A stretch of DNA of 64,000 nt from Defluviicoccus sp. Its GTDB lineage: Bacteria > Pseudomonadota > Alphaproteobacteria > MPNO01. The position numbers and the translations under genes are program-made. The stretch's first letter is position 1. Every line of letters starts with the position of its first letter. This document shows positions 8,367-63,635 of the stretch, one piece after another. Location of the stretch: NCBI GenBank assembly GCA_028820505.1, contig JAPPIT010000117.1:1-64000 (forward strand), read 5' to 3'. The notes below the pieces were generated by a model. That model did not search any database, was not told the DNA's origin, and worked only from the letters and a program-made list of their open reading frames with translations.

Positions 8367-8430
8367 CCGTCATGCCCGGACTTGTTCCGCTGCCGCCCGG
8401 TTCGGCGTTCGGCGGGCTCTGCGCCGACAG
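8367..8430 (+). repeat. Family D element, copy 1
   Basis: A 64-base repeat that starts with most of a family C arm (CGTCATGCCCGGACTTGTTC) and then switches to a different unit, GGTTCGGCGTTCGGCGGGCT. A nearly identical copy lies inverted at 22745-22807, and a truncated copy lies at 22261-22296. It runs almost directly into the family B element at 8446. Confidence 0.75.
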
Positions 8431-8445
8431 GCGGGACCGTCTCCG

Positions 8446-8547
8446 CCCCTGCTGTCACCCCGGACTTGTTCCGGGGTCCAGGGCCACATGCACCGCTCTG
8501 GCCCGGTTTCCCTGGACCCCGGAACAAGTCCGGGGTGACAGCAGGGG
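8446..8547. repeat. REPIN-like inverted repeat, family B copy 1
   Basis: Perfect 38-base arms (8446-8483 and 8510-8547) flank a 26-base spacer. Each arm includes the palindromic core CCCCGGACTTGTTCCGGGG. Related copies with coordinated base changes in both arms lie at 11788, 22400 and 63508. Confidence 0.9.
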
Positions 8548-8622
8548 ACACGGACGGGCGGTGCAAGCATCCCACAATCCGAGCCTCGACCGGACCGGTG
8601 CGCCGGAAATCCGCCCGCACCC

Positions 8623-8750
8623 CTCGTCATTTCGACCGGAGCGCGAAGCGCGGAGCGGAGAAATCTTTCCGCACAGACGGTTCGGCGCCGAAGCGGGCAG
8701 ATTTCTCCGCTCCGCCGCCCCTTCGGGCCGGCTCCGGTCGAAATGACGAG
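8623..8750. repeat. Family E long inverted repeat
   Basis: Outer arms of 20 bases (8623-8642 and 8731-8750) and inner arms of 16 bases (8651-8666 and 8699-8714) are perfect complements, giving one long interrupted hairpin about 128 bases long. The outer arm reads CTCGTCATTTCGACCGGAGC. Only one copy is in this window. It lies upstream of the ADP-forming acyl-CoA synthetase gene. Confidence 0.85.
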
Positions 8751-8837
8751 AGGGCGGAGTCCGGGCTGACGGTGGGGACCGCGCCTCCGCCCCGGGGCGT
8801 TCTGGACAGGCTCGCGCGCCCTATTCATCATCGGCCG

Positions 8838-10880
8838 ATGCCGTCCTCCCCGCTCTCGCGCCTGTTCGACCCACGCGCCATCGCCGTGGTCGGCGCGTCG
8901 GCGAACGAGGAAAAGCCGGGCTTCCAGATCCTGAGGGCGCTTGAGCCCTTCCACGGCGCGGTTTACCCGGTCAACCCGCGCGGCGGCGCCATCCTCGGCC
9001 GTCCGGTCCATCGGAGCCTCGGCGAGGTGCCCGGACCCGTCGACCTCGTCGCGCTGGTGCTGCCGGCGCGGCATTCGCTGGCGGTGCTGGAGGATGCCGC
9101 TTCGGTCGGCGCCGGCGCCGCGTTCATGGTGAGCGGCGGTTTCGGGGAGACCGGCGATGCCGGGGCCGCGCTGGAAACGGATATCGCGGGCGCCTGCCTG
9201 GCCGGCGGGATCCGGCTTCTGGGACCCAACACCTCGGGATTCCTGCGCCCCTCGCGCGGGCTCGCCTGCACCTTTCTCCCCGCGGCGGCGGCGCTCCGGC
9301 CCGGCCCCATCGGGATCGTCGCGCAGTCGGGCGGGATCAACCTCACGCTGGCGATGATGGCCAACGCGCAGGGGCTGGGCGTCAGCCTCGCGGTCGGGCT
9401 CGGCAACGCGGCCGATCTGGGCGTCGCGGAGACGCTGAACTACCTCGCCGCGGACCCGGAGACGCGGGCCATCGTCCTGCACCTCGAAGGGGTGGCGGAC
9501 GGCAGGGCCGTGTTCGACGCCGTCAGGGCCGCGGTTCCGGTCAAGCCGGTGGTCGCGCTCCCGGTCGGCAGAGCGGACCTCGCGGGTTTCGCGGAGTCGC
9601 ACACCGGCGCGCTGATGGGAAACCACCGCCTGACATGCGCGGCGCTCCGCCAGGCGGGCGCGGCGGTGGTGGAGACGCTCGACGACGCGCTCGACGCGGC
9701 CTACGCGCTCTCGGTGACGCGGCTGAACCCGGCGCGCGACCCGGGGATCGGCGTGCTGACCGGGCAGGCCGGGCCGGGGCTGCTGATGACGGATACGCTC
9801 CGGCAGGCGGGCGTCTCCGTGCCGGAGCTCGCGCCCGCGACGGTGGCGCGGATCGCGGGCCTGCTCCCGCCCTTGACCTACATGAAGAATCCGGTCGACA
9901 CCGGGCGGCCGGACGCGGGCTTCGGCGCCGTCATGGAGGCGCTCGCGGCGGACGGGGGGATCGACGCCGTCCTCGCCTATGCGCTGATCGAGGGCGGCGC
10001 GCTCGACGTCGGCGGTGCCGCGGTCGAAGCGGCGGGCAAGACGTCGAAACCGGCGGTCTTCGCCACCGCGGGCGTGCCGTCCGAGACCGCGGGGCTAGTC
10101 GATGCGCTCCGCCGCGCCGGCATTCCGGTCTTCCTCGCCCCCGACCGTGCCGCGCGGGCGATGGCGGCGATGGTTGCGGACGCGCGCCACCGGGCAGCGG
10201 AGCCGGACGGTCGGGAATCCGCGCCCCCCGGGACCGCGCCGCCCCTGACGCGCGCGGTCGACGAGGACGCGGCGAAGACGCTGGTATCGGCCTATGGGAT
10301 CCCGACGCCGAAACGGGCGGTCTGCCGAAGCCGCGCCGAGGCCGAGGCGGCGCGCGCGGCGATCGCGGGTCCGGTCGTGGCCAAGGTCCTGGACCCCGGA
10401 ATCCTCCACAAATCGGACGTGGGCGGCGTGCATGTCGGGATCGAGACCGCCGCCGCGCTGGAGGAGGCGCTCGACGCTATCGAGCGGATATCGAACGCCG
10501 GCTACCTGATCGAGGCGATGGCGCCCGACGGGCTCGACCTCATCCTCGGCGCGCGGAACGACCCGAGCTTCGGCCCGACCGTGCTTCTGGGCCTCGGCGG
10601 CACCGCGGCGGAGGCCGTCGACGACGTTGCCGTGGCCCTGGCGCCGCTCGGCGCGGGCGAGGTGGACGCGATGATCGACTCGCTCGCCGGCAGCGCGCTC
10701 TTCGGCCCCTGGCGCGGCGCCCCCGCCCCCGACCGCGCCGCCATCCGCGAGGCGGTGCTGGGCCTCGCCCGGCTGATCGCCGAACATCCCGAGATCGCGG
10801 AGATCGACCTCAACCCGGTAAGGGCCTACGCCGAGGGCGCGATGGCCCTCGACGCGCTGATCGTTCTCCGGCGCGCGTAG
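8838..10880 (+). CDS. Acyl/acetyl-CoA synthetase, ADP-forming (fused alpha-beta)
   Basis: A 680-residue single-chain NDP-forming acyl-CoA synthetase that interconverts acyl-CoA, ADP and phosphate with acid, ATP and CoA. Domain order: CoA-binding Rossmann domain (SRLFDPRAIAVVGASAN at the N-terminus), two succinyl-CoA-ligase-like domains, then an ATP-grasp domain at about residues 470-680 (VVAKVLDPGILHKSDVGGVH). The phosphate-carrying histidine is in ESHTGALMG. The C-terminal IAEIDLNPV is typical. ATG 8838 fits the expected start of the CoA-binding domain. It appears monocistronic, between repeats and the HigBA locus. The acid could be acetate or an aryl/branched acid; the sequence does not decide. 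Confidence 0.88.
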   Translation: MPSSPLSRLFDPRAIAVVGASANEEKPGFQILRALEPFHGAVYPVNPRGGAILGRPVHRSLGEVPGPVDLVALVLPARHSLAVLEDAASVGAGAAFMVSGGFGETGDAGAALETDIAGACLAGGIRLLGPNTSGFLRPSRGLACTFLPAAAALRPGPIGIVAQSGGINLTLAMMANAQGLGVSLAVGLGNAADLGVAETLNYLAADPETRAIVLHLEGVADGRAVFDAVRAAVPVKPVVALPVGRADLAGFAESHTGALMGNHRLTCAALRQAGAAVVETLDDALDAAYALSVTRLNPARDPGIGVLTGQAGPGLLMTDTLRQAGVSVPELAPATVARIAGLLPPLTYMKNPVDTGRPDAGFGAVMEALAADGGIDAVLAYALIEGGALDVGGAAVEAAGKTSKPAVFATAGVPSETAGLVDALRRAGIPVFLAPDRAARAMAAMVADARHRAAEPDGRESAPPGTAPPLTRAVDEDAAKTLVSAYGIPTPKRAVCRSRAEAEAARAAIAGPVVAKVLDPGILHKSDVGGVHVGIETAAALEEALDAIERISNAGYLIEAMAPDGLDLILGARNDPSFGPTVLLGLGGTAAEAVDDVAVALAPLGAGEVDAMIDSLAGSALFGPWRGAPAPDRAAIREAVLGLARLIAEHPEIAEIDLNPVRAYAEGAMALDALIVLRRA

Positions 10881-10926
10881 GCGGCGCGGAGAGAGCATGG
10901 TCTTGTGCAGCGATGACTCCGGGTTC

Positions 10927-10967
10927 GCCGGATCGAGATACTGCATTGCGGCAATGCTCGATCCGGC
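10927..10967. promoter_or_regulatory. Nested palindrome upstream of higBA (operator or terminator)
   Basis: Outer arms GCCGGATCGAG (10927-10937) and CTCGATCCGGC (10957-10967) enclose an inner palindrome GCATTGC-G-GCAATGC (10943-10957). It ends 25 bases before the HigB start. HigA antitoxins repress their own operon through palindromes, so this may be the operator. It could instead end the upstream synthetase transcript, although no T-run follows. Confidence 0.45.
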
Positions 10968-10992
10968 GTACCGTTATTCGTTACGTTGAACC

Positions 10993-11274
10993 GTGATCGG
11001 GAGCTTTGCCGACAAGCGCACCGCCGCGATCTTCGTCGGCCGCGCCGTTCGCGGTCTGCCAGCGTCGATCCAGCAGCGCGCCCGGACGAAGCTCCTGATG
11101 ATCGACGCGGCCGGCCGTCTGGACGATCTGCGGGCGCCGCCGGGCAACCGTCTGGAGGCATTGCGGGGTGATCGCCGGGGGCAGCACAGCATCCGCGTCA
11201 ACGACCGATGGCGGATATGTTTCGTCTGGCGCGGCGGGTCGGCCTGGGACGTCGAGGCGGTCGACTACCATTGA
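10993..11274 (+). CDS. higB: HigB-like toxin, RelE/ParE superfamily
   Basis: A 93-residue HigB-type mRNA interferase, predicted to cut mRNA on the ribosome. The family pattern is clear: a basic N-terminal half with GLPASIQQRARTKLLMID, LRAPPGNRLEALRGDR, and the core HSIRVNDRWRICFVWRGG, which carries conserved basic residues of the active surface. The C-terminal DVEAVDYH is typical. It starts with GTG 10993. The toxin comes before the antitoxin, which starts 13 bases after its stop: the usual order for hig loci. Low translation from the GTG would favour excess antitoxin (inference). Confidence 0.88.
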   Translation: MIGSFADKRTAAIFVGRAVRGLPASIQQRARTKLLMIDAAGRLDDLRAPPGNRLEALRGDRRGQHSIRVNDRWRICFVWRGGSAWDVEAVDYH

Positions 11275-11287
11275 GAGGGGGAGCGTC

Positions 11288-11641
11288 ATGACCATCGAAC
11301 GCGAGGAGCTGGACAGGCGGCGGGTGGATTTCTCGGATGTCGCGTCGGAACGGCGGCTGGCGCCGGTACACCCCGGCGAGATCCTGCGCGAGGAGTTCCT
11401 GACGCCCATGGCGCTCAGCGTCTATCGGCTTGCCGGGGCGATCGGGGTCTCGCGGCCGCGGCTGAACGACATCGTGCTCGGCCGCCGGCGCGTGACGGTG
11501 GACACCGCGCTTCGCCTGGGACGCTATTTCGGAACGACGCCGGAGTTCTGGATCAACCTTCAGACCCGCTACGACCTCGACGTCGCCGAACGCACGGTTC
11601 GTCCCGGGATCGAACGGGAAATCGAGCCCCACGCCGCATGA
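11288..11641 (+). CDS. higA: HigA-like antitoxin, XRE family
   Basis: A 117-residue HigA-family antitoxin that binds HigB and represses the operon. The signature VHPGEILREEFLTPMALSVYRLAGAI lies at about residues 27-51 (described by its ends because it is long), followed by the helix-turn-helix SRPRLNDIVLGRRRVTVDTA and then ALRLGRYFGTTPEFWINLQ. The N-terminal 25 residues are longer than in the shortest HigA proteins. ATG 11288 lies 13 bases after the toxin stop. The nested palindrome at 10927-10967 is a candidate operator. Confidence 0.9.
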   Translation: MTIEREELDRRRVDFSDVASERRLAPVHPGEILREEFLTPMALSVYRLAGAIGVSRPRLNDIVLGRRRVTVDTALRLGRYFGTTPEFWINLQTRYDLDVAERTVRPGIEREIEPHAA

Positions 11642-11787
11642 CGATGCGGCCGCCGCCGGGGCCCGGGACGCCGTAACACACGGAAGCCTCAGGACACGAA
11701 CCGGCGCAAAGGTGGGGGATTATAAGGACTACTCGATGCGCGGGCTCGGGACGCGGATTTCGGCGCGCCGGCGTCTGCCCTTTTTGT

Positions 11788-11915
11788 CCCCCTGTTGTCA
11801 CCCCGGCCTTGAGCCGGGGTCCAGGGATACAGGCACCGCCGTCGCCCGGCTTCCCCCGGATCGGGGTCCGGGACGAGCCTGGACCCCGGCTCAAGGCCGG
11901 GGTGACAACAGGGGG
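11788..11915. repeat. REPIN-like inverted repeat, family B copy 2
   Basis: Arms 11788-11825 and 11878-11915 are perfect complements. The core here is CCCCGGCCTTGAGCCGGGG rather than the ACTTGTT form, and both arms carry the change. The spacer is the reverse complement, with small changes, of the spacers at 22437-22491 and 63546-63597, so this copy sits in the opposite orientation. The 552-base gap 11642-12193 holds this and the next repeat and no gene that I can support. Confidence 0.9.
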
Positions 11916-11959
11916 CGGAGACAATGTCGGGCGGGGCGGGCACTCCTCTCCCTCCCAGT

Positions 11960-12072
11960 CGTCATGCCCGGACTTGTTCCGGGCATCCACGCCCCTCCGC
12001 CATCTCGCCTGTGCCCGGCCCGCACAGCGATGCCGCAAGACGTGGATGCCCGGAACAAGTCCGGGCATGACG
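11960..12072. repeat. REPIN-like inverted repeat, family C copy 1
   Basis: Perfect 32-base arms (11960-11991 and 12041-12072) surround a 49-base spacer. The arm contains CATGCCCGGACTTGTTCCGG and ends in ATCCACG, the same ending as family A arms. A second copy is at 22582-22693. Confidence 0.9.
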
Positions 12073-22260: not shown

Positions 22261-22296
22261 CCGTCATGCCCGGACTTGTTCCGCTGCTGTCCGGTT
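22261..22296 (+). repeat. Family D element, truncated copy
   Basis: It matches the first 36 bases or so of the family D element at 8367 (CCGTCATGCCCGGACTTGTT then CCGCTG), then the similarity stops. The gap 22198-22883 holds this and three further repeats, and no gene that I can support. Confidence 0.7.
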
Positions 22297-22399
22297 AAGA
22301 TGGGTTGGACCCGGCGCAAGGCGTCGATACAGGCGGGTTTCCGGCCCGCCCGCCGGATCGGGACACGGATCGCGGCCCGCCCGCATCCGCCCCCCTTGT

Positions 22400-22528
22400 C
22401 CCCCCGCTGTCACCCCGGCCTTGAGCCGGGGTCCAGGCTCGCCCCGGACAACCGATCCGGGGAAAGCCGGGCGACGGCGGTGCCTGACAGGCTGGACCCC
22501 GGCTCAAGGCCGGGGTGACAGCGGGGGG
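22400..22528. repeat. REPIN-like inverted repeat, family B copy 3
   Basis: Perfect 37-base arms (22400-22436 and 22492-22528) with the CCCCGGCCTTGAGCCGGGG core, as in copy 2. The spacer matches that of copy 4 at 63546-63597 closely and carries its own short hairpin CCCCGG/CCGGGG. Confidence 0.9.
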
Positions 22529-22581
22529 CGAGACAAGGTCGGGCGGGGCGGGCATTCTCCGGCACTCCCCTCCCTCCCCGC

Positions 22582-22693
22582 CGTCATGCCCGGACTTGTT
22601 CCGGGCATCCACGCCCCTCCGCCGCCGCGCCCGCGCCCGCTTATACCGCGATGCCGCAAGACGTGGATGCCCGGAACAAGTCCGGGCATGACG
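22582..22693. repeat. REPIN-like inverted repeat, family C copy 2
   Basis: Perfect 32-base arms (22582-22613 and 22662-22693), identical to those of copy 1 at 11960, with a different spacer of similar length (48 bases) whose right end GATGCCGCAAGA is shared. Confidence 0.9.
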
Positions 22694-52079: not shown

Positions 52080-54443
52080 CTACCCGGCGCGCGCCGCGGC
52101 GATCGCCTCCAGGATGGACTCGGGCGTGATGGGGAGGCTCGTCACCCGCGCCCCCAACGGCCTGAGCGCGTCGTTGACCGCGAGCATGATCGCCGCCGGC
52201 GCGCCGACCGTGCCGGCCTCGCCCGCCCCCTTGGTGCCGAGGGCGGTCTCCTCGATCGGGGTCTCGACATGGCCGACATGGATGTCGGGCAGGCCCGCCG
52301 CCATGGGAACGAGATAGTCGGCGAAGCTCGCGTTCAGCATCTGGCCGTCCTCGTCGTAGCGGCACTCCTCGAACAACGCGCCGCCGATGCCCTGGACGAC
52401 GCCGCCCCGGATCTGCTCCTCGACCAGCAGCGGGTTGACGATCCGCCCGCAATCCTCGACCACCCAGTGATCGAGCAGCCGGATTTCGCCGGTCTCGACG
52501 TCGACCTCGAGCGACGATCCCTGCACCCCGTTGGCGAGCGCGAACGGCGCGGCGTCGGGGACATAGTGCCGGGTGACGGCGAGCTCGGGCTGGATGCCGG
52601 GTGGCAATGTGTCGTGGCGGAAATGGCCGATGCGACCGATCTCGGAAAGGGCGATCCGGGGCTCCCCGGTTGCCCGGTCGCAGACCGCGCCGCCCGCGAG
52701 GTCGAGGTCGGCCCGATCGGCCTGCAGGATCGAGCCGGCGAGCTCCAGGATGTTGGCGCGCAGCCCCCCGGCCGCCCGCCACACCGCCTCGCCGCCGATG
52801 GTCAGCCCGCGCGAGGCCCACGCGCCGCCGCCATAGGGCGTCGTCGCGGTGTCGCCCCCCACCACGCCGACATCGTTCGCGGCGACGCCGAGCCGGTCGG
52901 CGACGATCTGGGCGAGCGCGGCATGGGTTCCCTGCCCCAGCTCGATCACCGAGGTGACGCAGCGAACCGCGCCCGAGGGCTCGAGCCGGACCGTCGCGCC
53001 GTCCTGGGTGCTGATATGGGCGCCGGACGGGCCGTAATAGGCGGGCCCGACGGAGGTCATTTCGAGGAAGGTCGCGACCCCGATGCCGCGATGGATTCCG
53101 GCCTTCCGCAGGTCCGCCTGCTCGGCGCGGAGCGACTCGTAGCCCATCATCCCGACCAGCTTGTCGAGGCAGCGCCGGGGGCTGAGCCGGTTTATCGCGA
53201 GCCCGCCCGGGGTCCTCAGCGGATAGTCGTCGTCGGTCCAGTAGTTGCGCCGCCGCAATTCCACCGGATCGATTCCGGCCGCGCCGGCGGCCCAGTCGAG
53301 AAGCTGCTCCGCCACCGCGCAGGCGATCGGCTGGCCGACGGCGCGGTACATCCCGGACGGCGGCTTGTTCTGGAAGGCGACGCGCAGCCGGGCGTCGTAA
53401 TGCGCGTTGGCGTAGGCGCCGGCCGCCATCATGATCGTCATCATGCCTTCGCTGATCGGCGGACGTCCGAGCGAGCCATAGGCGCCGAGCGAGGTCAGCG
53501 CATCCACCGAAAGCCCCCGGATCCGGCCGTCGCCGTCGACCCCCAGCCGGGCCGCGACCGCCTGGTCGCGGGCATGGACGTCGCTGACGAAGGCCTCCAT
53601 CCGGTCGACGACGTACTTGACCGGCCGACCGAGGATTTTGCTCACCGCGGAGACGGCGATCTCGTCGCCGTAGATGTGGAGCTTGATGCCGAACCCGCCG
53701 CCGATGTCGGGCGCGACGACCCGGACCAGGTGCTCCGGAATGCCGAGATGGCGCGACAGCGTGTCCTGCTGGTGCCACGGCGACTGGTGGCTGCCGTGCA
53801 CGGTGAGCGTGCCCTCGCCCGGGTCGTAGTCGGCGATGACGGTGCGCATTTCGAGCGGGATGCCGCTGTGGCGGGCGAAGGAGAAGCGGCCCTCGACGAC
53901 ATGCGTGGCCCCGTCGAGCGCGGCTTCGGAATCCCCCGTGCCGAGCGCGGTCGAAAAGCAGAGATTGCTGCCGAGCTCCGGGTGGACCAGCGCGGCGTCC
54001 TCGTCGAGCGTCCGGTCGCGCACCGCCGCGGCGGGCAGCGGCTCCCACGCGACCGCGACTTCGTTCGCCGCGTCCTCGGCCTTGGCGCGGCTCGCGGCGA
54101 CCGCGGCGGCGACCGGCTCGCCCTGCCAGACCGCGCGGTCGACCGCGACCGCGTGCTGCGGCGGCGAGACCATCGTCGGCAGGTGGTCCATCGTCCCCTG
54201 CCACGGCTTGCAGACCGTGGCGATCTCGGCGCCCGTTATCACCCGCGCGCCGGGAACCGCCGCCAGCGCCGGGGCCGGATCGATACCGAGGATCCGAGCA
54301 TGCGCGTAGGGGCTTCTGACGAAGGCGAGATGCAGCAGTCCCGGAAAGCGGAGGTCGTCGGAATACTTGCCCCGGCCGAACGCGAGCCGGCGGGCGCCGC
54401 TGCGGGGTAACGGGCGCCCGACCGCGCCCCCGGGATCAGCCAC
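52080..54443 (-). CDS. Molybdopterin-binding large subunit, XDH/CODH family (second set)
   Basis: The 787-residue large subunit of a second molybdenum hydroxylase. The MoCo loop is GGGFGIK, the YRAVGQPIACAVAEQL segment is present, and the catalytic glutamate is kept in TKGAGEAGTVGAPAA, unlike the first set at 3099-5510. CODH-specific CSFR is not seen, so CO oxidation is unlikely. The start overlaps the end of the FeS subunit gene by 8 bases. The order FAD, FeS, large differs from the first operon. Substrate unknown; nicotinate, purine or aromatic N-heterocycles are possible. Confidence 0.92.
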   Translation of the reverse strand: MADPGGAVGRPLPRSGARRLAFGRGKYSDDLRFPGLLHLAFVRSPYAHARILGIDPAPALAAVPGARVITGAEIATVCKPWQGTMDHLPTMVSPPQHAVAVDRAVWQGEPVAAAVAASRAKAEDAANEVAVAWEPLPAAAVRDRTLDEDAALVHPELGSNLCFSTALGTGDSEAALDGATHVVEGRFSFARHSGIPLEMRTVIADYDPGEGTLTVHGSHQSPWHQQDTLSRHLGIPEHLVRVVAPDIGGGFGIKLHIYGDEIAVSAVSKILGRPVKYVVDRMEAFVSDVHARDQAVAARLGVDGDGRIRGLSVDALTSLGAYGSLGRPPISEGMMTIMMAAGAYANAHYDARLRVAFQNKPPSGMYRAVGQPIACAVAEQLLDWAAGAAGIDPVELRRRNYWTDDDYPLRTPGGLAINRLSPRRCLDKLVGMMGYESLRAEQADLRKAGIHRGIGVATFLEMTSVGPAYYGPSGAHISTQDGATVRLEPSGAVRCVTSVIELGQGTHAALAQIVADRLGVAANDVGVVGGDTATTPYGGGAWASRGLTIGGEAVWRAAGGLRANILELAGSILQADRADLDLAGGAVCDRATGEPRIALSEIGRIGHFRHDTLPPGIQPELAVTRHYVPDAAPFALANGVQGSSLEVDVETGEIRLLDHWVVEDCGRIVNPLLVEEQIRGGVVQGIGGALFEECRYDEDGQMLNASFADYLVPMAAGLPDIHVGHVETPIEETALGTKGAGEAGTVGAPAAIMLAVNDALRPLGARVTSLPITPESILEAIAAARAG

Positions 54444-54915
54444 CGAAGCGGCTCTCCATCGTCGTCTCGACCGCGTCCACGATGGCGTGGTAGCCGGTGC
54501 AGCGGCAGTAATTGCCGGACAGGAACTCGCGGATCTCGGCGCGCGTCATCTTGCGCCCGGCCTCCAGCATCTCGGCCGCGGTGAGCAGCATGCCCGGCGT
54601 GCAATAGCCGCATTGCAGCGCGTTGCGGTTAATGAACGCCTCCTGGAGGTCCTCGATCTCGCCGGAATCCGAGACCCCTTCGATGGTCCACACGTCGGCG
54701 CCGTCCGCCTGGATGGCGAGCATCAGGCAGCCGCGCACGATCGAGCCGTCCACCTTCACCGTGCAGGCGCCGCAGACGCCGTGCTCGCAGCCCAGATGGG
54801 AGCCGGTGAGGCCGAGCTCGATCCGCAGGAAGTCCACCAGGTGCTGGCGCGCCTCGACTCGTTTGGCGATCTTCTCGCCGTTGACGGTGAGTTCGATGTC
54901 GGCGAATTCGTCCAT
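54436..54915 (-). CDS. (2Fe-2S) subunit of the second molybdenum hydroxylase
   Basis: The 159-residue CoxS-type subunit. Ligands for cluster 1 are Cys43, Cys48, Cys51 and Cys63 (GCEHGVCGAC), and for cluster 2 Cys102, Cys105, Cys137 and Cys139 (CGYC, CRC). Complete and of normal length. It lies 12 bases downstream of the FAD-subunit gene and overlaps the large-subunit gene by 8 bases. Confidence 0.94.
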   Translation of the reverse strand: MDEFADIELTVNGEKIAKRVEARQHLVDFLRIELGLTGSHLGCEHGVCGACTVKVDGSIVRGCLMLAIQADGADVWTIEGVSDSGEIEDLQEAFINRNALQCGYCTPGMLLTAAEMLEAGRKMTRAEIREFLSGNYCRCTGYHAIVDAVETTMESRFGG

Positions 54916-54927
54916 CGTTCCGCCCCC

Positions 54928-55788
54928 TCAGCCTGCCGCGACCATGCGGTCGATCGCGCGTCCGGTCAGCACCCGCGCGAGGTGCAGCCGCGTTGCGGCG
55001 GACGCATGGAAATTCCCGATCGGGTCGAGATCGCCGCCGAGCGCTTCCTTGACCGCGTCCTTGACGTCGTCGGACCACGCCTTGCCCTCGGCGGCGGCGG
55101 ACGCGGCATCGGCGAAGCGGGGCCGGTCCTCGCTCCCGAAAAAAGCGAGGCGGACGTCGCTCAGCACGTTTCCGTCGACCTTCGCGTGGCAGCACACGCC
55201 GGCGAGCGCGAAGTCGCCATGGCGCCGGGCGAGCTCCATGAAGGACGACCGGTAGCCGGGTTCGATCGCCGGGATGCGGGTCTCGATCAAGAGCTCGTCG
55301 TCGCCGCGCTCGGTCTCGTAGAGCCCGTTGAAGAAGGACCGCGCGGCGACACTCCGCCGGCCGCGCGCGCTCGCCAGCACGAACTCCGCGCCGAGCGCGA
55401 CCGCGCAGGCGGGGAGCTCGGCGGCGGGGTCGGCGAGCGCGATGCTGCCGCCGAAGGTGCCGCGGTTGCGGATCGCGACATGGGCGACATGCGGCATCGC
55501 CTCGGCGATCATCGGCAAATGCTCGGCCACGACGGGCGAATCCATCACCTCTGCGTGGCGGGCGAGCGCGCCGATCCTGACCGTCCCGTCCTCGAAGGAT
55601 ATGCCCTTGAGTTCCTCGATCCGGTTGATGTCGATCAGGAGACGCGGCCGCGATAGCCGCATGTTCAGGGTCGGCATCAGGCTCTGGCCGCCGGCGAGGA
55701 TGCGGGCCTCCTCGCCGTGCTCGGCGAGGAGCTCCAGGACTTCGTCGAGGCTTTCCGGCCTGATATAGGCGAAGCGCGGCGCCTTCAC
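54928..55788 (-). CDS. FAD-binding subunit of the second molybdenum hydroxylase
   Basis: A 286-residue CoxM-type subunit with both FAD loops: LAGGQSLMPTLNMRLSRPRL near residues 32-51 and RNRGTFGGSIALADPAAELP near 107-126. The GTG at 55788 is chosen because GGAGG lies 6 bases before it and the protein then begins VKAPRFAYIRP, the normal family start; an ATG 20 codons earlier would add an unrelated leader. It is the first gene of the second operon, 69 bases after the dehydratase-like gene on the same strand. Confidence 0.92.
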   Translation of the reverse strand: MKAPRFAYIRPESLDEVLELLAEHGEEARILAGGQSLMPTLNMRLSRPRLLIDINRIEELKGISFEDGTVRIGALARHAEVMDSPVVAEHLPMIAEAMPHVAHVAIRNRGTFGGSIALADPAAELPACAVALGAEFVLASARGRRSVAARSFFNGLYETERGDDELLIETRIPAIEPGYRSSFMELARRHGDFALAGVCCHAKVDGNVLSDVRLAFFGSEDRPRFADAASAAAEGKAWSDDVKDAVKEALGGDLDPIGNFHASAATRLHLARVLTGRAIDRMVAAG

Positions 55789-55857
55789 TCCCAGCCTCCC
55801 GTCTTCGTTGTCAGGAAGACACTCTAGCCAAGGCCGCGGATTCGGCAAGAGGCCCGA

Positions 55858-57088: not shown

Positions 57089-57490
57089 ATGGGCAGGCTT
57101 CGCCACATCGCGATGCAGGTGCCCGATCTGGAGAAGGCCGCTTCGTTCTACGAGGCGGTGTTCGGGTTCGACCGGGTGTCGGAGGCGGAAAGCCCGATCG
57201 GCAACGCGATCATGCTGTCCGACGGCGTGATGAACCTCACGCTGCTCAACTTCCCGGAGGGGACGATCGGCGGCAAGAACGGGCCGGACTGGGCCGGGCT
57301 GCACCATTTCGGCATGGTGGTGGACGACAAGGAAGCGACCGCGGAACGGATCGAGGCCGGCGGCGGCCGCTTCTTCATGGAGCTCCCGGGCGACTATCCC
57401 GGCGTCGAGGCCGAGACCAAGTTCAAGGACCCGAATGGGATCGTCTTCGACGTCTCGGAGCACGACTGGACGCTCAAACGCAAGGGCTGA
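57089..57490 (+). CDS. VOC (glyoxalase/dioxygenase superfamily) protein
   Basis: A 133-residue vicinal-oxygen-chelate protein with two beta-alpha-beta-beta-beta modules. Module 1 begins LRHIAMQVPDLEKAASFYEA (His near residue 6) and module 2 LHHFGMVVDDKEATAERIEA (His near 72). The acidic metal ligand is in FKDPNGIVFDVSEHDW. Such proteins act as glyoxalases, epimerases, resistance enzymes or ring-cleavage dioxygenases; the exact one is not decided. GGGGAG lies 7 bases before the ATG. The DUF1989 gene follows after 5 bases. Confidence 0.85.
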   Translation: MGRLRHIAMQVPDLEKAASFYEAVFGFDRVSEAESPIGNAIMLSDGVMNLTLLNFPEGTIGGKNGPDWAGLHHFGMVVDDKEATAERIEAGGGRFFMELPGDYPGVEAETKFKDPNGIVFDVSEHDWTLKRKG

Positions 57491-57495
57491 GCGCC

Positions 57496-58116
57496 ATGGA
57501 GATCGTCAGGGAATTCACCATCCCGGCCCGCGAGGGCCGGGCTCTCGTCGTCGAGAAGGGGCAGGTGCTCCGGATCCACCAGATCGTCGGCGGCCAGGTC
57601 GGCGACTGCGTCTTCTACAACGCCGACGACCATCGCGAGTGGTTCCATGTCGGCCAGAGCTGGGCGACCAACGTCATCCTCGGCACCGGCACGTCCAAGT
57701 CGTTCAAGCACTTCTACTCCAAGCCGCCGCGCGAGAACGCGATGCTGACGACGGTCGCGGACACCTACGCCAATCACTGGGGCAACATGGGCGGGCGCTG
57801 CTCGACGAAGCTCTACGAGCGCCGCGACAATCTCGGCGAACACCGCTCCTGCCAGGAGAACCTGACCGAGGCGCTCGCGCCTTGGGGGCTGACCGGCGAC
57901 GAGGTGATGGACGTGTTCAACGTCTTCATGAACGTCGCGCTCGACGCCGAGGGCGGGTTCACGATCCTGCCGACGACGGTGGGCGCGGACGATTACATCG
58001 ACCTGCGCGCGGAGATGAACGTGCTCGCCGCCGTCTCTGCCTGCCCGGCCGACACCTCCCCCACCAACGCCGGCAGGTCCGCGCCGCTCGGGATCAAGGT
58101 GTTCGCGCCCGGCTAA
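57496..58116 (+). CDS. DUF1989 (urea carboxylase-associated) family protein
   Basis: A 206-residue protein of the DUF1989 family, whose members occur beside urea carboxylase/allophanate hydrolase and glycine-cleavage-like genes; their own activity is not established. Landmarks are QVGDCVFYNADDHREWFHVG, the GGRCSTKLYERRDNLGEHRS segment, NVFMNVALDAEGGF and VSACPADTSPTNAG, with several conserved Cys, His and Asp that look like metal ligands. No urea carboxylase gene is nearby. It is co-directional with the VOC gene, 5 bases apart. Confidence 0.84.
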   Translation: MEIVREFTIPAREGRALVVEKGQVLRIHQIVGGQVGDCVFYNADDHREWFHVGQSWATNVILGTGTSKSFKHFYSKPPRENAMLTTVADTYANHWGNMGGRCSTKLYERRDNLGEHRSCQENLTEALAPWGLTGDEVMDVFNVFMNVALDAEGGFTILPTTVGADDYIDLRAEMNVLAAVSACPADTSPTNAGRSAPLGIKVFAPG

Positions 58117-59510: not shown

Positions 59511-60836
59511 ATGCCGGACGAGGGCCGCGCCACGGTCAACACGCTCGAACCCTATTTCATGCCGTTCACGGCGAACCGGCAGTTCAAGTCGGCGCCCAGG
59601 ATCGTGGTGGCGGCGGAGGGCATGCACTACACCACCGACGACGGTCGCAGGGTGCTCGACGGCTCGGCCGGGATGTGGTGCGTCAACGCGGGCCACGGCC
59701 GCGAGAAGATCGTCCGCGCGATCCAGAAGCAGGCGGCCTCGATGGACTACGCGCCCGCCTTCCAGTGCGGCCACCCGGGCGCGTTCGACCTGGCGGCGAG
59801 GCTGGCGACGCTGATGCCGGGCGACCTCGACCACGCGTTCTTCTGCAACTCGGGCTCGGAGGCGGTCGATACCGCGCTCAAGATCGCGCTCGCCTATCAC
59901 CGCCAGAACGGCGAGGCGGCGCGGACCCGGCTGATCGGGCGCGAGCGCGGCTATCACGGGGTCGGCTTCGGCGGCACCGCGGTGGGCGGCATCTCCAACA
60001 ACCGCAAGCAGTTCGGCAACCTCGTCTCCGGCGTCGACCACCTGCCGCATACCCACGATCTGGAGAAGATGGCGTTCTCGCGCGGCCAGCCCGAATGGGG
60101 CGCGCATCTGGCGGACGCGCTGGAGAGCGTCTGCGCGCTGCACGACCCGTCGACGATCGCCGCCGTGATCGTCGAGCCGGTGGCGGGCTCGACCGGCGTG
60201 CTGGTGCCGCCGAAGGGCTATCTCGCGCGTATCCGGGAGATCTGCGACCGGCACGGCATCCTGCTGATCCTGGACGAGGTGATCACCGGGTTCGGGCGCG
60301 TGGGCGAGGCGTTCGCCGCCGAGCGGTTCGGCATCGAGCCCGACATGATCACCATGGCCAAGGGGCTGACCAACGCGACGGTGCCGATGTCGGCGGTTGG
60401 GGTGAGCAAGAGGATCCACGACACGCTGATGGCGGGCCCGGCGGGGGTGGAGCTGTTCCACGGCTACACCTATTCGGGGCACCCGCTGGCCTGCGCGGCG
60501 GGTCTGGCGACGCTGGAGGTCTATGCCGAGGAGGGTCTGTTCGAGCGCGCCCGGACGCTCGAACCGGTGTGGGAGGACGCGCTGCATTCCCTCCGCGACC
60601 GGCGCAACGTGATCGACATCCGCAATATCGGCCTGATGGGCGCGGTCGAGCTCGCGCCCAGGCCGGGGGCGCCGGGCGCGCGCGCCTTCGACGTCTATCT
60701 CGGGTGCTTCCAGGGCGGGCTGATGACGCGCCAGACCGGCGACACCATCGCCCTCTCGCCGCCGCTGATCATCACGGAAGCGCAGATCGGGGAGCTCGCC
60801 GACATCCTCGGTGCCGCCATCGACGCGGCGGATTGA
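59511..60836 (+). CDS. Class III PLP-dependent aminotransferase (omega-amino acid:pyruvate type)
   Basis: A 441-residue aminotransferase moving the terminal amino group of an omega-amino acid or amine to pyruvate or another oxo acid. The PLP lysine is Lys284 in TMAKGLTNATVPMSAV, the cofactor aspartate is in LLILDEVITGFGRVG (Asp255), and FFCNSGSEAVDTALKIA binds the phosphate. The N-terminal PYFMPFTANRQFKSAPRIVV is typical of beta-alanine:pyruvate aminotransferases. GGAGG precedes ATG 59511. A perfect hairpin follows the stop at 60864. The amine donor could be beta-alanine or an aminophosphonate/aminosulfonate (inference). Confidence 0.92.
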   Translation: MPDEGRATVNTLEPYFMPFTANRQFKSAPRIVVAAEGMHYTTDDGRRVLDGSAGMWCVNAGHGREKIVRAIQKQAASMDYAPAFQCGHPGAFDLAARLATLMPGDLDHAFFCNSGSEAVDTALKIALAYHRQNGEAARTRLIGRERGYHGVGFGGTAVGGISNNRKQFGNLVSGVDHLPHTHDLEKMAFSRGQPEWGAHLADALESVCALHDPSTIAAVIVEPVAGSTGVLVPPKGYLARIREICDRHGILLILDEVITGFGRVGEAFAAERFGIEPDMITMAKGLTNATVPMSAVGVSKRIHDTLMAGPAGVELFHGYTYSGHPLACAAGLATLEVYAEEGLFERARTLEPVWEDALHSLRDRRNVIDIRNIGLMGAVELAPRPGAPGARAFDVYLGCFQGGLMTRQTGDTIALSPPLIITEAQIGELADILGAAIDAAD

Positions 60837-60863: not shown

Positions 60864-60908
60864 CCCAACGCGTCATGCCCGGACTTGTTCCGGGCATGAC
60901 GCGTTGGG
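60864..60908. repeat. Perfect palindromic unit of the family C type, likely transcript end
   Basis: A 19-bp perfect stem (60864-60882 with 60890-60908) around the loop ACTTGTT, containing CATGCCCGG. It is a single family C arm folded on itself, 27 bases after the aminotransferase stop. No T-run follows, so it may stabilise the RNA end rather than be a classical terminator. Confidence 0.85.
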
Positions 60909-61215: not shown

Positions 61216-61848
61216 ATGGATAGCGGCACCGCGGGCGCGTCCGATTCCGCCAACGGCACCGACAGCCGGCTGCTGCGCGACGACTGGGATTATGTCGGGG
61301 CGATCCCGCTCGACGATTTCGAGGCGAGCGACTTCGCCCTTCTCGACGCCCAGCGCCCGACCTTCACCGCCGAGCGCCAGGCCGGGCAGATCCTCCGCAT
61401 CATGCGCGGCATGGCGGACGACCCGTCCTTCGGCTACCGGATCAACACCTACCGGCACTGCCTCCAGTCGGCGACGATGGCGCACCGCGCGGGCAAGGAC
61501 GAGGACTATGTCGCGATGGCGTTCCTGCACGATATCGGCTTCGACATCGCGCCGGCGACGCACGGTTCCTTCGTCGCCGCGCTGGTCGGCCCCTATGTCT
61601 CGCCCGAGATGGAATGGCTGCTCGCCAACCACGCCGAGTTCCAGAACCTCCACTGCCGCAACCACCCGACGATCGACCGCTTCGCGCGGGAGAAGTGGCG
61701 CGGCCACCCCGCGTTCGCGATGACGGCGGAGTTCTGCGCCAGGTTCGACCAGAACGCGATGGACCCGGACTACGACAACATGCCGATGGAGGCGTTCGAG
61801 CCGATGGTCCGCCGCCTTTTCGCCAGGACGCCGCGCGAGGCCGCCTGA
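61216..61848 (+). CDS. HD-domain protein resembling PhnZ/TmpB diiron oxygenases
   Basis: A 210-residue HD-fold protein. Candidate metal ligands are His81 (RINTYRHCLQSATMAHRAG), His105-Asp106 (AFLHDIGFD), His116 (PATHGSF), His139 (LLANHAEF) and Asp178 (CARFDQNAMD). The His81-His105 spacing of 24 and the His116-His139 spacing of 23 are close to the diiron oxygenase PhnZ as I recall it. The loop before His116 is shorter and Asp178 comes sooner. PhnZ-type enzymes split hydroxylated organophosphonates with O2; hydrolytic HD phosphatases are the alternative. GGGGGAG precedes ATG 61216. It heads a three-gene operon with an AhpD-like and a 2OG-Fe(II) oxygenase gene. Confidence 0.75.
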   Translation: MDSGTAGASDSANGTDSRLLRDDWDYVGAIPLDDFEASDFALLDAQRPTFTAERQAGQILRIMRGMADDPSFGYRINTYRHCLQSATMAHRAGKDEDYVAMAFLHDIGFDIAPATHGSFVAALVGPYVSPEMEWLLANHAEFQNLHCRNHPTIDRFAREKWRGHPAFAMTAEFCARFDQNAMDPDYDNMPMEAFEPMVRRLFARTPREAA

Positions 61849-61855
61849 TCCCGCG

Positions 61856-62461
61856 ATGAGCTGGATCCGCCGCATCGAGTACGAGGAGTCCGCGGGCGCG
61901 CTCCGGGCGCTCTACGACCGGGTCAAGGGGCCGGCCGGCAATATCGACAACGTGATGAAGGCGCACAGCCTGCGCCCGCACACGATGGAGGGGCACAGCG
62001 CCCTCTACAAGGCGGTGCTGCACCACACCGGCAACGCCTTGCCCGGATGGTTTCTGGAGACGGTCGGCATCCATACCAGCCTGATCAATCGCTGCGCCTA
62101 CTCGGTCGCGCATCATTTCGCGGGGCTCGCGCGGCTGCTCGACGACCGGGGGCGCGCGGAGGAGATATTGGCCGCGCTGGAGGCCGGCGCGCCGGAACGC
62201 GTCTTCGGGGCCAAGGAGAGCGCGCTGCTCGCCTACGCCGCCAAGCTCACCCGCGCGCCGGGCGAGATGGTGGAGGCGGACATCGAAACCGCGCGCGAAG
62301 CCGGCGCGTCGGACGGGGAGATCTTCGAGGTCAACCAGGTCGCGGCCTATTTCGCCTATTCCAACCGGCTCCTCAACGGGCTCGGCATCACGACCGACGG
62401 CGACGTGCTGGGCGAATCCCCGCCGACCAGCGCCGACCTCGACGACTGGCGGCACCGGTGA
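61856..62461 (+). CDS. AhpD/carboxymuconolactone decarboxylase-family protein
   Basis: A 201-residue alpha-helical protein of the AhpD/CMD superfamily (uncharacterised peroxidase-related group). The usual redox motif Cys-x-x-Cys-x-x-x-His reads C80-A-Y-S83-V-A-H-H87, so the second cysteine is Ser. A thiol-disulfide peroxidase cycle through these two residues is therefore not possible, although the first Cys and the His remain. It starts 7 bases after the HD-domain gene and overlaps the 2OG oxygenase gene by 4 bases. It could protect against peroxide made by the oxygenases or act as a decarboxylase-like enzyme (inference). Confidence 0.82.
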   Translation: MSWIRRIEYEESAGALRALYDRVKGPAGNIDNVMKAHSLRPHTMEGHSALYKAVLHHTGNALPGWFLETVGIHTSLINRCAYSVAHHFAGLARLLDDRGRAEEILAALEAGAPERVFGAKESALLAYAAKLTRAPGEMVEADIETAREAGASDGEIFEVNQVAAYFAYSNRLLNGLGITTDGDVLGESPPTSADLDDWRHR

Positions 62462-63432
62462 CCGGGCGCCGGGGCTTCGACCGGATCCCGGTGATCGACG
62501 CCGGGCCGCTCGCGGGCGATGACGGGGCGGCGATCCGCGAGACGGCATCCGCCATGCGCGCGGCGTCGGAGACCGCGGGGTTCTTCTGCATCGCCAACCA
62601 CGGCGTCGCGGAGAACATCCAGCAGGCCGCGCTCCGCGCCTCGCGGGAATTCTTCGCCCGGCCGCTCGCGGAGAAGCGCCGCGTGGCCGTGAACGCGCTG
62701 CACCGCGGCTATATCGAGATGGGCGAGGCGACGCTCCGGGGCGGGGTCGAGAGCGACCGCAAGGAGAGCTTCGTCTGGGGGCTGGAGCTCGGCCCCGACG
62801 ACCCGGACGTGGCGGCGGGGAAGCCGCTGATGGGGCCCAACCGGTGGCCCGGCGACATGCCGGAGATGCGCACCGCGCTCTACGGCTGGTACGAGGCGGT
62901 AGGGACCTGCGCGCGCAACGTGCTCAAGGGCCTCGCCGTCGGGCTCGGCCTCCCGGCGGACTATTTCGCGCCCCGCTTCGCCAAGCCGCTCGCGCGCGGA
63001 TCGCTGGTCCGCTACCCGCCGCACCCGGCCGACGCCGGACCGCGCACCTTCGGCACCGCCGCCCATACCGATTACGGCGGCATCACGCTCGTCTGGCAGG
63101 ACGATTCGGGCGGGCTCGAGGTCGAGAACCGCGCCGGCGACTGGGTGCCCGTCCACCCGGTCCCGGACACGCTGGTAGTCAATATCGGCGACCTGATGGC
63201 GCGCTGGACCAACGACGTCTTCGCGTCCAACCCGCACCGGGTGATCAACCGCTCGGGCGGCGAGCGCTACTCGATGGCGGTGTTCTTCGACCCCGACTAC
63301 GACACGCGCATCGAGACCCTGCCGACCTGCCTCGCCCCCGGCGAAGCGCCACGCCACGCGCCGACCGCCTGCGGCGACTATATCCGCGAGCGCTTCGACG
63401 CGGTGTTCCGCTACCGCGGCGGGACGGGTTGA
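62458..63432 (+). CDS. Isopenicillin N synthase-family 2-oxoglutarate/Fe(II) oxygenase
   Basis: A 324-residue non-haem iron oxygenase. The iron triad is His203 and Asp205 (AAHTDYGGIT) and His260 (NPHRVIN), and the 2-oxoglutarate carboxylate is held by Arg270 and Ser272 (GERYSMAVFF). The N-terminal DIOX domain IPVIDAGPL and GFFCIANHGV is typical. The presence of Arg-x-Ser fits either a 2OG-dependent hydroxylase or an IPNS-like oxidase. GTG start, overlapping the previous stop (GTGA). With the HD-domain protein it makes a hydroxylase plus diiron-oxygenase pair. Confidence 0.9.
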   Translation: MTGRRGFDRIPVIDAGPLAGDDGAAIRETASAMRAASETAGFFCIANHGVAENIQQAALRASREFFARPLAEKRRVAVNALHRGYIEMGEATLRGGVESDRKESFVWGLELGPDDPDVAAGKPLMGPNRWPGDMPEMRTALYGWYEAVGTCARNVLKGLAVGLGLPADYFAPRFAKPLARGSLVRYPPHPADAGPRTFGTAAHTDYGGITLVWQDDSGGLEVENRAGDWVPVHPVPDTLVVNIGDLMARWTNDVFASNPHRVINRSGGERYSMAVFFDPDYDTRIETLPTCLAPGEAPRHAPTACGDYIRERFDAVFRYRGGTG

Positions 63433-63507: not shown

Positions 63508-63635
63508 CCCCCTGGTGTCACCCCGGACTTGATCCGGGGTCCAGGCTCGCCCCGGACACCGATCCGGGGAAAGCCGGGCGAGGGCGGTGCCTGTGGCCCT
63601 GGACCCCGGATCAAGTCCGGGGTGACACCAGGGGG
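63508..63635. repeat. REPIN-like inverted repeat, family B copy 4
   Basis: Perfect 38-base arms (63508-63545 and 63598-63635) with the core CCCCGGACTTGATCCGGGG, a third variant present in both arms. The spacer matches that of copy 3 (22437-22491). The GATAGGCGAGACCGTCTCCG just to the left also resembles the junction between the family D and B elements near 8425-8445. Confidence 0.9.

Follow-up and report, generated by a model that had tools for sequence, protein, structure and literature searches.

Known HD-domain oxygenases are listed as three, MIOX, PhnZ and TmpB (PMC8177086), and close variants of PhnZ are on record (PMC10574752). PhnY/PhnZ acts on 2-aminoethylphosphonate and TmpA/TmpB converts 2-trimethylaminoethylphosphonate to glycine betaine, whereas MIOX is a diiron HD oxygenase that cuts a C-C and not a C-P bond. 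A related logic has been demonstrated for methylguanidine demethylation by MgdH/MgdL, in which a 2-oxoglutarate (2OG) oxygenase forms a hydroxylated intermediate and a second protein, a dedicated lyase modelled as a beta-barrel, breaks it (PMC12508155). In this work, we describe a three-gene operon that looks like an undescribed version of this "hydroxylate, then cleave" chemistry; in the open-licence literature searched, we found no published description of the gene combination.

The operon lies within the window, that is, the whole stretch of 64,000 nucleotides analysed here, and is made up of three genes on the plus strand. The first (61216..61848) encodes an HD-domain protein of 210 aa, predicted to be a diiron oxygenase of the PhnZ/TmpB/MIOX structural class, the second (61856..62461) an AhpD-like (TIGR01926) single-cysteine protein of 201 aa in which CxxC has become CxYS, and the third (62458..63432, GTG start) an IPNS-type 2OG/Fe(II) oxygenase of 324 aa. 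As the first-pass annotation had described, they are tightly packed, with a 7-base gap between the HD and AhpD-like genes (61849-61855) and a 4-base GTGA overlap between the AhpD-like and oxygenase genes (62458-62461). The same annotation took the third gene for a complete oxygenase of the IPNS type standing in place of the usual hydroxylase, and we agree: both domains (DIOX_N and 2OG-FeII_Oxy) score above the Pfam cut-off, and the iron triad H203-D205-H260 and the 2OG-binding RxS (R270, S272) are conserved. It also placed an omega-aminotransferase gene just upstream. This gene (59511..60836, plus strand) is indeed AptA-like, matching NF052567 at 714 bits (cut-off 500), and its position beside the operon is retained in a second locus, L001, but it is not tightly coupled to the operon, as 379 bases with a REP-like palindrome lie between. 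Fifteen matches to such REP-like elements, which are built on CCCGGACTTGATCCGGGG, were found in the window, against 0.23 expected, mostly as inverted pairs; they stand at 8375-12065 and 22269-22686, and on either flank of the operon, at 60878 and 63522-63621.

With TmpA/TmpB the operon shares a 2OG hydroxylase adjoining an HD protein, the fold class and ligand motif of the latter, and a link to trimethylated amines. It differs in its oxygenase, which is of the IPNS and not, as in TmpA, of the gamma-butyrobetaine-dioxygenase type, in the additional AhpD-like gene, in an HD-to-next-His stretch 11 residues shorter in a profile alignment, and in having neither a YxxE loop nor a phosphonate context. 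Likewise, as in MgdH/MgdL, a 2OG oxygenase is accompanied by proteins that may break a hydroxylated intermediate; here, however, these partners are AhpD-like and HD proteins, and a riboswitch like that of the methylguanidine operon was not found, as 56-64 kb of the window gave no Rfam match (PMC12508155).

The six ligand-like residues of the HD protein pointed out by the first-pass annotation (H81, H105, D106, H116, H139 and D178, in the order H...HD...H...H...D) are all present and invariant in 35 relatives, as are F142, Q143 and H164. Taken as a single sequence, the protein shows weak similarity to PhnZ (E 0.0025) and TmpB (E 0.006). The stretch of PhnZ that holds its first His and its HD pair aligns without gaps to H81 and H105-D106. 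A profile of the 35 relatives searched against all PDB sequences matched only TmpB (6.9e-13) and PhnZ (5.5e-12); H116 and H139 map onto TmpB in this alignment, and D178 does so too, but in a weak second segment. An AlphaFold2 model, built from ten input sequences (mean pLDDT 77, above 90 across much of the core), gave 10 PDB matches at E<=0.001 in Foldseek, every one of them PhnZ or TmpB. MIOX was the next and third-ranked solved fold, a weak structural match (probability 0.99; E 0.12) that has no recognisable sequence similarity, and inositol genes were not noticed near the operon. Ranks 1-11 thus belong to PhnZ, TmpB and MIOX, and no phosphohydrolase was significant in this PDB search. Profile and fold searches therefore support the class of the HD oxygenases over that of the phosphohydrolases, as had been proposed, and the moderate-confidence model does not group the protein with mononuclear phosphohydrolases. 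We predict that it is oxygenase-like, of the PhnZ/TmpB/inositol-oxygenase kind.

This protein belongs to a wider HD family that reaches no curated family cut-off among those checked, and whose relatives outside the class are more distant (about 34-43% identity in a phylum survey). Two more distant paralogues are found in the window's own genome (L004, G000:C5:49139-49345; L005, G000:C206:58927-59112), both with weak matches to Phn-HD. Relatives also occur in small genomes of 1.2-1.3 Mb (L055:7839-8396(+) and L056:7878-8438(-)), in a conserved and apparently housekeeping neighbourhood, with a PurF-like protein adjoining, as judged by eye.

Among 385 sampled genomes of the class, the HD family was found in 109, the oxygenase (E<=1e-70) in 43 and the AhpD-like protein (E<=1e-25) in 30. 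The oxygenase gene lies <=7 kb from the HD gene in 8 of the 15 best HD matches, the window's own genome included, a proximity whose chance we roughly estimate at about 0.5% per genome. Chance does not explain the arrangement, which is found again in L001 and, in rearranged form, in seven further genomes of the class. The order is HD-AhpD-oxygenase in L001 and L035, oxygenase-HD in L036 and AhpD-oxygenase-HD in L042; the AhpD gene is divergent from HD-oxygenase in L038, and the HD gene from AhpD-oxygenase in L050. On the HD tree, the partnered proteins of several families form a single clade (93/84 support) with one unpartnered row, L002, and this clade is reconstructed with one later loss of the partners. 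Partnership changed twice on the tree, against a mean of 8.3 for shuffled labels, and none of 500 shuffles was as low. Members of the clade carry residues of their own, namely Q46-R47, Y26, F/Y109 (F109 in the window protein) and P151. TauD-type (taurine dioxygenase-like) genes of two lineages were also seen near HD genes (L001:10377-11480(-), L002:1116-2234(-) and L042:11168-12043(-)), that of L002 occupying the place expected for the lost AhpD/oxygenase pair.

The three genes are nevertheless separable. In the genus of the window, all three are present in one genome (G387) and none in two others (G386 and G389), while a fourth (G388) has the HD gene at 90% identity and no AhpD or oxygenase orthologue anywhere in its genome. 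Four clusters (L092, L093, L095 and L098, the last ending at a contig edge) have the AhpD-like and oxygenase genes without the HD gene. The HD-less cluster includes a polar amino acid ABC transporter, a creatininase-family protein, an XRE/cupin regulator and a conserved protein of ~361 aa; in L111 the same cluster has the AhpD-like gene and lacks the oxygenase. The ~361-aa protein (L092:4904-5992(-), L093:4473-5558(-), L095:9108-10229(+) and L111:7193-8416(+)) is encoded next to the AhpD-like protein at all four loci and next to the oxygenase at three of them. Neither Pfam nor NCBIfam matches its L093 copy, and the protein is a candidate for a further, as yet unnamed pathway enzyme. Since the pair is found without the HD gene and G388 keeps the HD gene without the pair, AhpD and oxygenase look like an older core unit to which HD was added in particular lineages. 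The three-gene unit of the first-pass annotation is therefore real and maintained in one clade, but it is not obligatory and can be divided; the HD-less pair had escaped that annotation.

The AhpD-like protein matches TIGR01926 above its cut-off (87.5 versus 81.8 bits), in agreement with the name it was first given, but the absence of the resolving cysteine had been overlooked. In place of the AhpD CxxC pair we found C80-A-Y82-S83, C80 being the sole cysteine of the protein. Ser stands at the second position in 21 of the 27 rows, that of the window among them; five rows have Cys, and a single divergent one has Ala. CxYC is confined to one separate clade of five (100/100 support) without catabolic-cluster neighbours, and CxYS occurs in every examined relative from oxygenase, transporter or sarcosine-oxidase clusters, including those of Leisingera and Paracoccus, where the CxYS AhpD is kept and a Rieske oxygenase takes the place of the 2OG enzyme. 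The spacing E68-C80-Y82-S83-H87 equals that of Glu74-Cys86-Tyr88-Cys89-His93 in the R. eutropha protein YP_296737.1 (PMC4674687). We rejected a normal CxxC peroxidase, as the resolving cysteine is replaced by Ser. Sestrin2 likewise retains only the first cysteine, the second being Leu there and Ser here, and still reduces alkyl hydroperoxides, so that removal of a peroxide by the single-cysteine protein is possible (PMC4674687). In contrast to the Sestrin-A/AhpD alkylhydroperoxidases, however, the protein described here is found in catabolic clusters, and our preferred reading is that it acts on a hydroxylated intermediate. No AhpD relatives were found in viral contigs.

In the window, the genes next to the operon do not include any for a sarcosine oxidase, a Rieske oxygenase or an ABC transporter, and information on the substrate comes from the neighbourhoods of relatives of 45-72% identity. 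The L036 locus includes soxA and soxB of the heterotetrameric sarcosine oxidase, both above cut-offs, with more sarcosine-oxidase loci recognised by homology, and a GbcA-like Rieske oxygenase is a neighbour in L035. Other neighbours are family-3 solute-binding proteins, polar amino acid permeases, the creatininase family, a HisC-like aminotransferase and a sulfopyruvate-decarboxylase-like protein. A histidine-related substrate might be suggested by hut genes, which flank L035, L095 (the latter assigned by eye) and the Leisingera cluster but are absent from most clusters. In another branch of the HD family, on a P. aeruginosa plasmid, an HD gene adjoined by a TmpA-like dioxygenase gene is followed by genes for choline transport and choline dehydrogenase. 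In the window's own genome, soxA was found above cut-off on another contig. Taken together, these neighbourhoods point to N-methylated or quaternary, amino-acid-like compounds as substrates, and so they favour the quaternary amines that had been proposed among the candidates. DUF1989 genes were also seen, one in the window (57481-58116(+)), 3 kb upstream of the operon, and DUF1989-like ones immediately 5' of HD relatives in L062 and L065.

Based on these data, we give about even chances to the operon serving the breakdown of an imported, amino-acid-like compound that is N-methylated or quaternary, with the HD protein carrying out an oxidative cleavage. From the genes, ligand sets, fold class, co-conservation and neighbourhoods described above, we infer the metal, the activities, the substrate and the order of steps as follows. 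The 2OG oxygenase would hydroxylate a carbon of the substrate, and the single-cysteine AhpD-like protein would process the hydroxylated intermediate, which may be hemiaminal-like or peroxidic. Acting as a diiron oxygenase in a mixed-valent state, the HD protein would bind a carbinol intermediate and cut the adjacent C-C or C-N bond in a four-electron oxidation that leaves a carboxylate. The methylated amines produced would then pass to the sarcosine oxidase encoded elsewhere in the genome. A bolder version, which we think less likely than not, is that the protein represents a further kind of HD diiron oxygenase, with a non-phosphonate N-methylated substrate, oxidative C-C or C-N cleavage and a relay of three enzymes, the single-cysteine AhpD fold serving catabolism and not as a peroxidase.

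The first-pass annotation had also counted phosphonates among the possible substrates. In favour of a pathway that cleaves phosphonates as PhnY/PhnZ or TmpA/TmpB do, but with unusual partners, one might cite the nearest structures and family models of the HD protein, which are those of PhnZ and TmpB, and a TmpA-like dioxygenase gene adjoining one distant HD relative on the P. aeruginosa plasmid NZ_CP115240.1 (L114:5935-7660). This gene (347 bits, cut-off 400) stops one base before the HD gene, downstream of which are choline transporter, choline dehydrogenase and aldehyde dehydrogenase genes. In PhnZ and TmpB, a YxxE loop serves both as a gate to the iron and to bind the amine of the substrate (PMC8177086). 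The HD protein has no such loop, S71 and Y74 aligning without gaps with Tyr24 and Glu27 of PhnZ, and it scores far below the cut-offs of TIGR03276 (31.2 versus 214.6 bits), NF049941 (25.5 versus 300) and NF052439 (15.4 versus 300). Where PhnZ and TmpB have His directly after HDxG, the partnered clade has F/Y and the wider family D/Q, and the Lys found in both enzymes four residues past the last His is an invariant Gln in the HD family; we take these two positions to be phosphonate contacts in PhnZ. Moreover, the neighbourhoods inspected showed neither phn genes nor genes for phosphonate transport. Because YxxE is absent, both phosphonate models are far below cut-off and the neighbours of relatives are of the amine type, the operon is most likely not for phosphonates, and we consider such a pathway very improbable.

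An ordinary metal-dependent phosphohydrolase, brought near the pair by regulation or nucleotide housekeeping, is slightly less improbable. Many HD relatives lie in non-catabolic neighbourhoods, and the six-residue motif alone is no proof of an oxygenase, because the hydrolase YqeK shares it (PMC8177086). On the other hand, HD genes stand in tandem with two unrelated families of 2OG oxygenases, and the fold search puts all three known HD oxygenases first and the hydrolases far behind; fold ranking and oxygenase partners together tip the balance to an oxygenase. A more serious competitor, though still a rather doubtful one, is that the oxygenase and AhpD-like pair works alone in a hydroxylate-then-release N-dealkylation like that of MgdH/MgdL, with the HD protein catalysing a separate neighbouring reaction elsewhere in the pathway or merely hitchhiking. 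It would account for the HD-less pair of the conserved transporter/creatininase cluster, for the CxYS AhpD being kept with a Rieske oxygenase, and for G388, where HD stands apart from the pair, and it follows the demonstrated logic of a 2OG dioxygenase with a dedicated lyase. Yet the HD genes found close to the pair make up one clade that survived reordering and has its own residues, Q46-R47 and F/Y109 among them, and the AhpD-like protein falls outside the MgdL lyase family, because MgdL was modelled as a beta-barrel (PMC12508155), a fold unlike that of the AhpD-like or the HD protein.

For the wider HD family, the partnered clade provides a conserved oxygenase partner, predicts a class of chemistry and narrows the range of substrates, so that the HD function can be tested directly. 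The CxYS subfamily of AhpD-like proteins would add a second new type of enzyme to the pathway. Further upstream in the window, we observed a gene triplet for a molybdenum hydroxylase of the xanthine-dehydrogenase type (52080-55848(-)), and a second molybdenum-hydroxylase set was recognised by eye past the end of the window (L075:8018-11669(+)).
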